From: a virus
Length of the DNA stretch: 20,365 nucleotides
Virus record (IMG/VR): IMGVR_UViG_3300036801_000224
Span: 1 to 20,365 of that record
Direction: 5' to 3' (one strand)
The notes below the pieces were generated by a model. The model had not been told where the DNA came from. It saw nothing but the letters and a program-made list of their open reading frames with translations, and made no database searches. This document shows positions 8,042 to 12,976 of the stretch, in pieces (position 1 is the first letter of the stretch; each line of letters begins with the position of its first letter). The translations under genes were made by a program, and so were the position numbers.

Positions 8042-8899
8042 ATGGCGAAGAACTGGTTCGATTTAGGCAACAACCGCTGGAAGCTGACCATCACCGATGA
8101 TCAGAACCCCGACGCACCGCCCAGTGTGTATCGGGGCTCGAAAGACGAGATCGCAGACATGCTGGCCGACTCCCAGCACAACGCCAACCGGCGAATCGCC
8201 GAACTCAAAGGCAATGGCAATGGCAAGTCGGTTCACTTCGGGCCGGTCGCTGGTGACCCGAAACCCCTCTCCCCCAATGAACGCATGACCACGGTGGCCG
8301 AGCTTCAGGATCCGGCCACCGTCGACCAGGCTTTTTCGCGGTTGCATCAGGCCGCGACCGGCGAAACGCCGGAAGAGCAGCGGGATCGGCGCAAGCGCGA
8401 AGAGGAAGACAACTACAATCGCGTGGCCACCGACACCGCGCTGCAGTTTGCAAGAGACACGCCCGAGTACGTCATGACCCAGCACAACGCGAATACCATG
8501 GTGGCGTACATGCGCCTTCACGGCATGGATCTGACCAACATCGAAAACTTTCAGCAGGCCTTCGATCATCTCAGCGCAGAAAAACTTTTGCAGCGAGAGG
8601 CACCGGGGTCTGAAACCCAAACCGAGGAAGAGGAGGACGAAGTGACTGAGCGTAATGCTCCCACGCCCAAAGCACCTCCGAAGCCACCAGCCAGGATCTC
8701 GACCGGCATCCAGCAACGTGACATTTCTGGAACGCCGCCGAGGCCCACAACGAGGCTGAAATATTCACGGGAGCAACTGGATCAGATGGCGCCGCAGACA
8801 TACAAACAACTCATGCTCACAGATCGTGCCGAGCTCGAGAAGTGCGAAGCGTACTATGCGAAGCGTCCACAGAAAGGCCAGCTAGTTCCCGCGCAGTAG
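8042..8899 (+). CDS. Putative capsid scaffold protein
   Basis: 285 residues, directly upstream of the major capsid gene, where tailed phages normally encode the scaffold. Composition supports this: highly charged, rich in Glu, Arg, Gln and Pro, few aromatic residues outside the first domain, and a predicted helical centre (about residues 105-180, including EEQRDRRKREEEDNYNRVAT). A very acidic run TEEEEDEVTE and a Pro-rich linker follow. The C-terminal 50 residues (YSREQLDQMAPQTYKQLMLT onward) form a helix with mixed charge, the part that in known scaffolds contacts the coat protein. The N-terminal domain (WFDLGNNRWKLTITDDQNPD) is beta-like. The ATG at 8042 follows the upstream stop by three bases with only a weak AAGG, so coupling is likely. 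Confidence 0.72.
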   Translation: MAKNWFDLGNNRWKLTITDDQNPDAPPSVYRGSKDEIADMLADSQHNANRRIAELKGNGNGKSVHFGPVAGDPKPLSPNERMTTVAELQDPATVDQAFSRLHQAATGETPEEQRDRRKREEEDNYNRVATDTALQFARDTPEYVMTQHNANTMVAYMRLHGMDLTNIENFQQAFDHLSAEKLLQREAPGSETQTEEEEDEVTERNAPTPKAPPKPPARISTGIQQRDISGTPPRPTTRLKYSREQLDQMAPQTYKQLMLTDRAELEKCEAYYAKRPQKGQLVPAQ

Positions 8900-8926
8900 C
8901 AGCCCCGAGAAGGGGAGCAGTGCGCC

Positions 8927-9940
8927 ATGGCGGGTTACTCACCAGCATCGAACCTGACGAGTAATTTGACCCAGTCCCAGGTCAATTTTTACGATAAAAA
9001 CTTTATACAAAATCTCAAAGCGGAGACTCCGCACTACCGTTGTGTAGAGCGCAGACCTCTGCCTGAGAACAGCGGCAACACTCTCAACCTTTTCGAGTAC
9101 GTTCCCTTTGGTCCCGACCTCAGTCAGGCACCGGAAGGCACGGTCGAAGCGGGCGAGACGCTCACCGTACTGAGCGACAAGATTGTGATCGGCAACTTCG
9201 CAGATTACATTTCTTACAGCCGCTTCAGCATGCAACTGGCCATCGATCCTGCGCTTGAAAACGGATCGAAGGAATTGGCGTACCAATGTGCGCTGACCGT
9301 GGCCAACCTGATCAAGAACACCACCGACGCTTTAGTGAATGTGGACTCGAGCGTCTCCCAACCGAACGCCTACAACGTCCCGTTCAACAAGACCAACATC
9401 ACCTCTGCCGTCGCTTCGCTGCGCCAACGCAACGTGCATCCGATGGAAGGTGGAAATTTCTGCGGCCTGGTTTGCGGCTTTGCCTGGGGCGATGCATTGA
9501 ACGATGCATCGAACAACGGCATCACCGACATTCTGAAGCGCAGCGTCGAGGGCACCGATGTTCTGAAGGAGCTCCCCGGCGGCAAGGGCGAGTACGTCAC
9601 GGCGATGGAGTGGAGCGGCGTCAAGTTTTATGAGACAACTGTCGTCACCCAGACTCCGAACTATCTGTCCCATGCCGGTGTCACCGCATTTCGCACCTAC
9701 ATCTATGGGGAAAATGCAGTGATCACGATCTCCATGGGCGCGAAAGAGAACACCAACCTCGGCGACGGTGACTGGAGAAATCTGAAAGTCATCGTGAAGC
9801 GGTACGACGACGCCAGTGTTTCTGACGCGGCCATGATGATCGGCGGCAGCGCAGCGTACAACTTTAACTTCGCAACCGGCGTCGTCCCCGACACCACAGG
9901 CCGGGCTCGTTATATCGACGCGCCCACGCTCATCACCTAG
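8927..9940 (+). CDS. Major capsid protein, N4 gp56-like family
   Basis: 337 residues. The pattern is that of the N4 gp56-type major capsid family (HK97-like fold): an N-terminal YDKNFIQNLKAETPHYRCVE, then PLPENSGNTLNLFEYVPF, a segment EGTVEAGETLTVLSDKIVIG for the extended loop, and YISYSRFSMQLAIDP followed by the long spine helix. The C-terminal part is beta-rich (NAVITISMGAK, NLKVIVKRYDD) and ends in a short tail. No protease or cleavage site is evident. AGGGGAG precedes the ATG by about ten bases and overlaps a small CCCC/GGGG hairpin (8903-8915), which might modulate translation. A terminator follows. Confidence 0.88.
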   Translation: MAGYSPASNLTSNLTQSQVNFYDKNFIQNLKAETPHYRCVERRPLPENSGNTLNLFEYVPFGPDLSQAPEGTVEAGETLTVLSDKIVIGNFADYISYSRFSMQLAIDPALENGSKELAYQCALTVANLIKNTTDALVNVDSSVSQPNAYNVPFNKTNITSAVASLRQRNVHPMEGGNFCGLVCGFAWGDALNDASNNGITDILKRSVEGTDVLKELPGGKGEYVTAMEWSGVKFYETTVVTQTPNYLSHAGVTAFRTYIYGENAVITISMGAKENTNLGDGDWRNLKVIVKRYDDASVSDAAMMIGGSAAYNFNFATGVVPDTTGRARYIDAPTLIT

Positions 9941-10469: not shown

Positions 10470-10622
10470 ATGGCCCTGGTCGCAGCCCCCAAGGGCACCA
10501 CCCCCAACACGCTCCTCAGTTACCCGCCCGGCAGCGTGATCGCGCCTGCGAGCGTCCCCGCTTCCACACAGGGCAACAAGAACACAACAGGCAACACCAC
10601 CATCTACCAGGTGCCCTCATGA
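10470..10622 (+). CDS. 50-residue Pro/Ser/Thr-rich protein
   Basis: A short frame starts at the ATG at 10470, preceded by the perfect site AAAGGAGG (10455-10462) at seven bases, one of the best in the window. It encodes MALVAAPKGTTPNTLLSYPP followed by GSVIAPASVPASTQGNKNTT and GNTTIYQVPS. No charge clusters, Cys or hydrophobic helix. The stop overlaps the next start (ATGA), so it lies inside a coupled chain. The phrase PPGSVxAPxSxP recurs near the C-terminus of the next protein with 31 of 35 bases identical. The role is unknown; such composition fits a virion peptide or linker. Confidence 0.78.
   Translation: MALVAAPKGTTPNTLLSYPPGSVIAPASVPASTQGNKNTTGNTTIYQVPS
10524..10558 (+). repeat. 35-base direct repeat, copy 1
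   Basis: Begins CCGCCCGGCAGCGTGA and matches 10961-10995 at 31 of 35 positions by eye. It encodes PPGSVIAPASVP in the 50-residue protein. Confidence 0.8.
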
Positions 10623-11056
10623 GCAAAGCGAAACCAAAAACCAAAGCGCAGCGCAAACCGCCGCCGCCCCCAAGGAGGAAGTCCATGCACCATCAGGATG
10701 AAGAAACCACCCAGCAGCAGACCGCTGCTCAACAGCCCGAAGACACTGCGCAGGAAGAAGGCATCGCCATAGAGAGGCCCAGGCACTACACGGGTGGAAA
10801 TATTACGGAGGAAGGCAAGCGGATCCTCGAGGGCCGCGATCTGCCCAAGCCTGGCCAGCTGCAGGAAGGCGACCAGGAGCTCTACGACAACGGTCCCGCA
10901 CCCCAAGAAGATCTGCCGCCCGCACCTGTAGGGATGAAGCCGAACGATCTGATCGCCATGCCGCCCGGCAGCGTGAACGCGCCGTCGAGCTTCCCTGGCG
11001 GTGCGCCACCGACCGATGTGGTGGTGCCAGAACCGGAAGAACCACCCGCAGAGTAA
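10619..11056 (+). CDS. Acidic/Pro-rich disordered protein with a nested start
   Basis: 145 residues from the ATG at 10619, which overlaps the upstream stop (ATGA). The first 22 residues are a basic, Pro-rich leader (MSKAKPKTKAQRKPPPPPRR). Residue 23 is an in-frame ATG at 10685 with a perfect AAGGAGG (10672-10678) six bases upstream, so a 123-residue form starting MHHQDEETTQQQ is likely made too, and may be the main product. The rest is rich in Gln, Glu and Pro and probably largely disordered, with one ordered-looking part (RPRHYTGGNITEEGKRILEG). Near the C-terminus LIAMPPGSVNAPSSFP repeats a phrase of the preceding 50-residue protein. Function unknown; head-tail or tail accessory by position. 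Confidence 0.72.
   Translation: MSKAKPKTKAQRKPPPPPRRKSMHHQDEETTQQQTAAQQPEDTAQEEGIAIERPRHYTGGNITEEGKRILEGRDLPKPGQLQEGDQELYDNGPAPQEDLPPAPVGMKPNDLIAMPPGSVNAPSSFPGGAPPTDVVVPEPEEPPAE
10672..10687 (+). promoter_or_regulatory. Internal ribosome-binding site and nested ATG
   Basis: AAGGAGG at 10672-10678, a six-base spacer, then an in-frame ATG at 10685 inside the 145-residue gene. It is much stronger than the site for the first ATG at 10619, which has only AGGTG in front. Confidence 0.65.
10961..10995 (+). repeat. 35-base direct repeat, copy 2
   Basis: Second copy of the repeat at 10524-10558, here encoding PPGSVNAPSSFP. The flanking codons also encode similar residues (N-x-L-L/I-S/A before the repeat), so the duplicated unit may be slightly longer at protein level. 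Confidence 0.8.
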
Positions 11057-11068
11057 GGAGCGGCCATC
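11055..11068 (+). promoter_or_regulatory. Ribosome-binding site pointing to an ATC start
   Basis: AAGGAG (11055-11060) overlaps the upstream TAA stop and is followed after five bases by ATC (11066-11068). No ATG, GTG or TTG occurs in this frame between the stop and the ATG at 11126, which itself has no good site in front. Confidence 0.6.
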
Positions 11069-12070
11069 TCAAACTCAACAACAAGCCTTCAGGCAGTCGT
11101 CGATTACATCTGTTCGCTGGGCGAGATGCAGCCCGTGATCCCGGCCTCGGGATTCGGCATCAACACTGCGCTCACCATGGCGACCGATGTGATGGCGGAT
11201 CTCATTTCCCAAAGATTCAACTGGAAATGGAACCGCATGAAAGTTGCGCCGTTCTACACCATCTCCTGGCAGCAGGACTATGCGCAGCTGGCGAGCGCCT
11301 TTCCTGGGCCCATCGGCTGGCTCGAGGACGCGTACTGGGTGGACATCAACAACACTGCCCTTCCCAAACCCACCTACGGCATCGAGGTGAAGCGCGATCT
11401 GCCGCCCACCTCGATCTCGGGCAATCCACCAGGCAAGCTCTGCTGGCACTACAACGACCAGCTGAATCAGGGCGTCTGGCCTGGCCCCAATGTGAAGTAC
11501 ACAGTTCCTCTCGGTGCTCCTATCACACCAACGAACCCGATCACCAACATCCTCGACCCCAACGGGAACATCCTGGTGTTGACGACGTACGGCACGACCG
11601 GGTCCACGCCCCCCTCACTCGCCACGAACTCACCCGAAGGCACGACAGTGAACGACGGAAGCTGCATATGGACTGTGGCCGGGCCTCGGTCGCAGGGCTT
11701 CCGCCTTCTTCCTATGCCGCCGCAGCAAGGGGTCTGCTACCAGGTCAACGTGATCGCGCAGAAGCAGGCACCGCCGCCCTTCACCTCGATGCAGCAGTTT
11801 CTCGATCCGCTTCCTGACGATTACGCCAATCACTTCCGCACCGGCTTTTCGGTGTACTGCTACAAGCTCGCTCCCAATCCAAGTATTAGAAGTCTCTTTC
11901 CCGGCATGCATCAAAGCTGGCTCGCGGCTATCGAAGCCACCATGAAGCAGGGCGACCGCGAGATGGACAACGCAGGCTTCATTCCTGATCGCTCTATCAT
12001 CGCGCCCCAGGGTGGAGCGGATATCGGACCCGCCAATCCGTATCTGTACAACGTGTATCCAGGGCGTTGA
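11066..12070 (+). CDS. Putative head-tail adaptor-like protein A, probable ATC start
   Basis: 334 residues if begun at ATC 11066, 314 if begun at ATG 11126. I prefer the longer form: a good AAGGAG precedes ATC, and the extra residues (SNSTTSLQAVVDYICSLGE) line up with the N-terminus of the paralogue at 12275-12976, both giving the phrase EMQP 22-23 residues in. Shared landmarks with that paralogue are EMQP, W-x-WNR, QDYA, FR-x-x-P-x-P, a Y...I-x-Q...AP stretch and P-x-PDD. Residues about 161-207 are an inserted module (DPNGN ... GSTPP ... NDGSCIW) missing in the paralogue. The C-terminal helical part (HQSWLAAIEATMKQGDREMD) is followed by a short tail. Position between capsid and nozzle-like gene fits an adaptor; function is inference. 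Confidence 0.75.
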   Translation: MSNSTTSLQAVVDYICSLGEMQPVIPASGFGINTALTMATDVMADLISQRFNWKWNRMKVAPFYTISWQQDYAQLASAFPGPIGWLEDAYWVDINNTALPKPTYGIEVKRDLPPTSISGNPPGKLCWHYNDQLNQGVWPGPNVKYTVPLGAPITPTNPITNILDPNGNILVLTTYGTTGSTPPSLATNSPEGTTVNDGSCIWTVAGPRSQGFRLLPMPPQQGVCYQVNVIAQKQAPPPFTSMQQFLDPLPDDYANHFRTGFSVYCYKLAPNPSIRSLFPGMHQSWLAAIEATMKQGDREMDNAGFIPDRSIIAPQGGADIGPANPYLYNVYPGR

Positions 12071-12274: not shown

Positions 12275-12976
12275 TTGCCATCAACCGTCACAGTGCAGAA
12301 CACCGTGAACTGGATGCTGCCTCTGCTCGAGATGCAGCCTCTAGAGATAACGGGAATGGAACCGGTGCTCTCTTCCGCGCAGCTGGTGCTCTCGACGCTG
12401 CTGGGCCCGCCGCTGGTGTGGCCCTGGAATCGTTCTGTGCTGCCCTTCACGACCGCCAACCAGGACTATGCAGCGATCCTGCCCGATTTCAGTTTCCTCG
12501 AGGGCGGCACCGTGCAGCCTCAAACGGGCGGCAAGAGTTGGGAGCTCACGGTGAAGCTTCTGCTCCATTCCGACCAGAGCAGTGCCAGGCCGCAGTACAT
12601 CGGCCCGCTGCTCGACGATGGCCAGGGCAACATCACCTTCCGCTTCTCTCCGTCGCCGGATCAGTCCTACAACGCCAAGCTGATCTATCAGCGCAACGCA
12701 CCACGCATCCAGTCGCTGGCCGCGACCTGGGCCCCGGTTCCTGACGATATGTCCTACATGCCCATGTGGGGATTGCTGGCCATGATGTCGTTGATCGGCA
12801 ACGACGCCCGGTTCAACGAATACAACACGAAGTTCGTCACCGCAGTGCTGGGGGCGCAGGGTGGTCTGACCGATCTCGAGAGGAACATTTTCATCGGCAA
12901 CTGGATGCGTGTCGCATCGCAGATCACGTCCACGCAGATGGCCACCCAGGAGCGGTTCAAAGCGAGGGAGCAGTAA
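12275..12976 (+). CDS. Putative head-tail adaptor-like protein B (TTG start)
   Basis: 233 residues. The frame is closed by TGA six bases before the TTG at 12275, so TTG is the first usable start; GGAG lies seven bases upstream of it. An ATG 14 codons later would remove the conserved N-terminus. The protein aligns by eye with the gene at 11066-12070 over its whole length (EMQP, W-x-WNR, PF-x-T, QDYA, FR-x-x-P-x-P, Q-R-N-A-P, PVPDD) but lacks the inserted DGS-W module. The C-terminus is helical (FNEYNTKFVTAVLGAQGGLT). Its stop overlaps the start of the nozzle-like gene (TAATG). An adaptor or stopper position at the neck would fit. Confidence 0.75.
   Translation: MPSTVTVQNTVNWMLPLLEMQPLEITGMEPVLSSAQLVLSTLLGPPLVWPWNRSVLPFTTANQDYAAILPDFSFLEGGTVQPQTGGKSWELTVKLLLHSDQSSARPQYIGPLLDDGQGNITFRFSPSPDQSYNAKLIYQRNAPRIQSLAATWAPVPDDMSYMPMWGLLAMMSLIGNDARFNEYNTKFVTAVLGAQGGLTDLERNIFIGNWMRVASQITSTQMATQERFKAREQ

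Follow-up and report, generated by a model that had tools for sequence, protein, structure and literature searches.

Sequence comparison points to recurrent near-cognate start codons in a head-to-tail adaptor-like gene of a soil phage and its relatives

In bacteria, few genes with near-cognate start codons are known (infC, sigR). The infC gene of E. coli starts with ATT and that of Streptomyces with ATC, and the Streptomyces sigR gene begins with GTC, which is repressed by IF3, as near-cognate start codons are, and keeps the protein low relative to the product of its neighbour (PMC5472188). A passage of PMC10666635 that cites Hecht 2017 puts initiation at ATT at ~0.3% of that at ATG in E. coli, and termination-reinitiation needs close gene pairs with short distances (PMC10666635). 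In phage SPP1, such coupling has been proposed for the connector gene 16, where UAAGAUG lies directly behind the upstream stop (PMC6316719). No report of ATC, ATA or ACG starts in phage structural genes was found in the literature searched, which was confined to work outside subscription journals.

The gene described in this study lies in a 20,365 nt stretch of DNA from a soil phage (IMG/VR record IMGVR_UViG_3300036801_000224), the whole of which is called the window here. It encodes a head-to-tail adaptor-like structural protein (11066-12070, plus strand, as are its upstream gene, its start signals and the sister gene) with an intact frame, 334 aa long if the proposed start codon, ATC at 11066-11068, is the start. 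As in infC (PMC5472188), homology fixes the start position, and the only start there would be a near-cognate codon with a third-base change from ATG. However, the infC codon serves IF3 autoregulation and is kept over wide distances, whereas the adaptor is a phage structural gene whose start codon varies among ATG, GTG, TTG, ATC, ATA and ACG and for which no feedback is known. The likeness to sigR is that of a non-canonical start that limits one protein and is missed by annotation pipelines, although for the adaptor we infer the dosage effect, whereas the sigR start is two mismatches from ATG, belongs to a bacterial regulator and has been demonstrated experimentally. SPP1 gene 16 likewise belongs to a head-to-tail connector and shows unusual initiation signals right after an upstream stop, but it has an ATG without a ribosome-binding site, while the adaptor gene combines a strong ribosome-binding site with a weak start codon.

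Directly upstream is a gene of 145 aa (10619-11056 in the ORF list) that shares its frame with the adaptor, has no match in Pfam or PHROG and ends at a TAA stop (11054-11056). The Shine-Dalgarno sequence AAGGAG (11055-11060) overlaps this stop, having AA in common with it, and is followed by a 5-base spacer and then by the ATC, which begins 9 bases downstream of the TAA. The preliminary description of this DNA had pointed to both the AAGGAG and the in-frame TAA, and both are read directly in the sequence; this is the very short stop-start distance that is characteristic of termination-reinitiation. From the TAA at 11054 to the ATG at 11126-11128, ATG, GTG and TTG are absent in all frames, so that this ATG is the first in frame, at what would be internal codon 21 rather than the start. 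At ATC 11066 the Shine-Dalgarno duplex has an energy of -8.4 kcal/mol, a value reached by just 2.5% of random window positions, compared to -2.4 at ATG 11126. AAGGAG followed by ATC after 4-9 bases occurs only once on the plus strand of the window.

The gene sits in a late operon with the order terminase (2661), portal (5274), capsid (8927), adaptor (11066) and sister gene (12275). The terminase belongs to PHROG 38, the portal is of the SU10 type (PF23899), which is a likeness to phage SU10 itself, and the capsid belongs to PHROG 1357. The capsid frame (8899-9940) is closed at 8899, with its start at 8927, and most related capsid genes have ~50 more N-terminal residues in frame. The sister gene (12275-12976) is a paralogous adaptor or tail-tube gene according to its profile comparison and structure model. 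It had been described as a paralogue with a TTG start, which agrees with an hhalign comparison of the adaptor and sister families (98.7%, E 2e-16) and with the TTG that is also found in its 82%-identical relative in L026. The two N-termini had been aligned up to the residues EMQP, and both proteins do reach EMQP (residues 20-23 and 19-22), but the tetrapeptide itself was rejected as a conserved motif because at this place the adaptor consensus reads GELxPV and that of the sister QQPL.

The term adaptor-like is supported by the predicted structure of the sister protein. Its model (pLDDT 88) matched only podoviral tail adaptors in the PDB, with E from 8e-8 to 6e-4 (cyanophage A4, VP1, Pa223, SU10, KHP30, crAss001, GP4 and N4). 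The adaptor model had a low pLDDT of 66 and a weak best match (E 3.5e-3, TM ~0.3), with podoviral tail or connector chains in all of its top 12 matches. The predicted sister fold thus resembles the podoviral tail adaptors and connectors of SU10, cyanophage A4, VP1, Pa223 and N4, and the predicted adaptor fold does so weakly. Unlike those connectors, the adaptor has no sequence match to PHROG, Pfam or PDB families, nor does the sister protein. The only isolated phage with an adaptor homologue is the Tunturiibacter phage Tunturi_3, in which the gene starts with ATG and is annotated "structural protein". Relatives in MAGs include Acidobacteriota, and an acidobacterial host is plausible for the window phage.

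Scanning IMG/VR for relatives of the window protein returned 23, with 37-85% identity, in which the aligned first codon was ATG, GTG or TTG exactly at ATC 11066, save for the most divergent few, which begin one or two codons earlier. The closest relative, L002 (85% identical over the full length), has the same stop-to-start layout as the window, with TAAGGAG at equal spacing before an ATG. Wider IMG/VR scans gave 220 distinct adaptor 5' regions, 14 of which have a longer N-terminus, leaving 206 with an assignable start: 149 with ATG, 40 with GTG, 10 with TTG and only 7 with a near-cognate codon. The ATC of the window therefore falls in one alignment column with the standard codons of ~199 5' regions of homologues and with the near-cognate codons of six others. 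None of the homologues read begins at the position of ATG 11126; homologues that do so were what the preliminary description had named as speaking against its reading. In adaptors L239, L241, L255, L263, L269, L270, L053, L154 and L165, an N-terminal extension of ~15-80 residues precedes the usual start in one frame.

Codons 2-20 of the window gene are under purifying selection. The pN/pS between the window and L002 was 0.28 for these codons, equal to that of codons 21-46, and was 0.33-0.72 in comparisons with eleven other relatives. The stretch of 20 residues that precedes ATG 11126 is thus protein-coding, and the start must lie at 11066 or very close to it. Both this result and the duplex energy of -2.4 bear out the earlier view that ATG 11126 has a poor ribosome-binding site and would cut off a conserved part. 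The locus thus has no standard codon at the conserved start and has that position fixed by homologues, which are two of the features that define the near-cognate class. As had been proposed, the gene probably starts at ATC 11066, judging from the sequence alignment of homologue starts and from the repeated appearance of ATC, ATA and ACG at this one codon.

This recurrence is the new observation reported here. Adaptor genes without a standard start have ATC in the window, L060 and L211, ATA in L223, and ACG in L073, L074 and L153. L204, which was counted as TTG, has a better-placed ACG and is one more, doubtful, case. In L060, a TTG that lies nine codons upstream lacks a good ribosome-binding site, and the ATC has AAGGAG. 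The sister gene has a single ATC (L059) among 198 sequences, and two additional homologue scans gave no further near-cognate case. Every near-cognate codon found in the adaptor and sister genes is a single-base change of ATG; in the adaptor this applies to 7/7 near-cognates, compared to 13% expected of unconstrained non-standard codons from the codon usage of the gene (p 6e-7). On a FastTree phylogeny of 191 proteins, built with the start residue left out, parsimony required 7 changes for the 8 near-cognate cases, and therefore the near-cognate start arose repeatedly, although L074 and L153, which are close on the tree, may share one origin. ATG-starting genes are the nearest relatives of L073 (L062, 95% identity over the compared columns) and of L060 (L054, 81%).

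Other families of the same loci served as controls. Near-cognate starts were found in 0/112 members of the family at 12976 and in 0/92 members of another family (comp 4), both of which have a sharp start, and the adaptor excess over these two was significant (Fisher p 0.015, ignoring relatedness). Against all seven families without exceptions (0/373; in two of these families the starts are poorly defined) the p value was 0.0007, again ignoring relatedness. Some large clusters (comps 1, 2, 6, 10 and 13) consist of shadow frames or have no sharp start column, and their members with no start were left out of the counts. The capsid gene was rejected as a control family because its N-terminus varies in length among phages. 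The share of ATG was 134/185 in the adaptor and 97/108 in the 12976 family, the adaptor being richer in GTG and TTG.

The preliminary description had named a sequencing error as what could undo its reading. That an ATG was misread or misassembled as ATC in the window contig, the phage itself having an ordinary start, is improbable. The window is a single metagenome contig, no near-identical contig was found in IMG/VR (pattern GCCATNTCAAACTCAACAACAAGC), and the closest relative (85%) has ATG at the aligned codon, so the window's own base is known in a single copy. As a general explanation, however, error is unlikely because six other lineages recur at exactly the same codon and the two neighbouring families have no case (0/204), whereas random error would strike every gene equally. 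The near-cognate rate in the family (~3%) is also far above any plausible per-codon error rate. In addition, the ACG of L073 is present in L292/L301, with 1 difference from L275 over 6984 bases, making three IMG/VR records. The two that are identical over the 6984 bases may be re-assemblies of one sample, but the third differs by one base, and therefore at least two separate assemblies agree on ACG. On the sequence evidence, the ATC, ATA or ACG start is a real, recurrent property of the adaptor gene and not a sequencing slip, and at least six other lineages would have exchanged ATG independently.

Three further readings accept the sequence as it is. Translation from ATG 11126, the first standard start codon in frame, with the 20 conserved N-terminal residues absent or dispensable, is very improbable given its duplex energy of merely -2.4, the absence of homologues starting there, the equal purifying selection on codons 2-20 and elsewhere, and the same N-terminal helix segment in the sister gene. 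Least probable is a fusion made by readthrough of the upstream TAA, which would free the adaptor from needing a separate start. In the window, in L074 and L211 and at the sister gene of L059, an in-frame upstream gene stops precisely four codons ahead of the near-cognate codon, and the 14 relatives with longer adaptors have them in one frame, which would suit such a fusion. However, the upstream gene is in a different frame in L060 and L223 and ends 144 bases away in L073, the upstream proteins in these cases are unrelated, TAA is an improbable stop for readthrough, and the constant single-base distance from ATG would go unexplained. Recent loss of the start, with the gene poorly expressed or dying in a defective or decaying phage, is about as improbable as an error in the window. 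The leader of L073 has been replaced relative to the 95%-identical L062, leaving a weaker ribosome-binding context, but the near-cognate genes are all intact over their full length and have kept a Shine-Dalgarno sequence in every case, the L073 sequence is present in several metagenomes, and a second intact adaptor copy was not found on the near-cognate contigs.

The surroundings of the near-cognate adaptors were also inspected. Mobile-looking genes often lie just upstream of the adaptor (L060:1903-2511, L223:2550-2996, L231:2466-2997), including HNH-like proteins recognized by eye (L060 and L231 cluster) and a VbhA-antitoxin-like protein (PF18495, E 1e-7). The site looks like an insertion hot spot, and insertions there may disturb the start signals of the adaptor. 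Compared to L062 (2150-2700 in both), L073 has lost or exchanged the whole leader, including a small upstream region, and the coding part is highly similar. The motif AGGGTA(N2)TAT stands directly before the start in L204:2985-3000, L211:2988-3003 and L223:2988-3003 and in no standard-start adaptor of the set; in L204 and L223, relatedness between the ends of the upstream genes may account for it.

It is likely that ribosomes terminating on the upstream gene would re-initiate at ATC 11066 by means of the strong Shine-Dalgarno sequence. The ordinary initiator fMet-tRNA, with its CAU anticodon, would read the ATC with the third base mismatched, and the product would be a protein of 334 aa, fMet-Ser-Asn-Ser-Thr..., that is (f)M-SNSTTSLQAVVDYI. 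The weak codon would keep adaptor synthesis low, giving a small but adequate supply, which would be tolerable because the head-to-tail adaptor is a low-copy part of the virion; solved structures of relatives have 12 copies per virion. An initiator tRNA for AUC or ACG carried by the phage was rejected, as no tRNA genes were found on the window or on seven of the near-cognate contigs.

Without help from coupling, the yield of a near-cognate codon may not suffice for an essential virion protein. An upstream stop within -15 to +40 nt of the start was found in 6/7 near-cognate adaptors with a readable upstream region and in 61/148 ATG adaptors (p 0.04 in this post hoc comparison), and also in 26/40 GTG adaptors (p 0.01). 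The trend was absent for the TTG starts and for the GTG starts of the sister gene. An in-frame stop exactly four codons upstream occurred in 3/8 near-cognate adaptors compared to 20/176, which was not significant (p 0.06). As far as can be read from these sequences, the short stop-start distances would fit termination-reinitiation. The duplex energy was -4.5 or lower at all 9 near-cognate sites, and a stronger Shine-Dalgarno sequence as compensation was rejected because the medians were -6.7 for near-cognate and -6.5 for ATG starts. A broader proposal, in which the adaptor family is selected for weak and often near-cognate starts, IF3-sensitive reinitiation meters a low-copy part and host fidelity would thereby control assembly, is doubtful, and so is its extension that many phage late genes may have such starts, unseen because gene finders accept only ATG, GTG and TTG.

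The data presented in this study indicate that a phage structural gene has repeatedly lost its canonical start across distantly related phages and stayed intact. This suggests that ATC, ATA or ACG can suffice as the start of an essential gene when the Shine-Dalgarno sequence is strong and coupling is tight. Genes with such starts are systematically truncated or missed by gene callers. Comparing homologous start columns over viral metagenomes reveals them, and the natural leaders could be used directly as constructs to test how start codons are selected, how IF3 discriminates among them and how reinitiation works.
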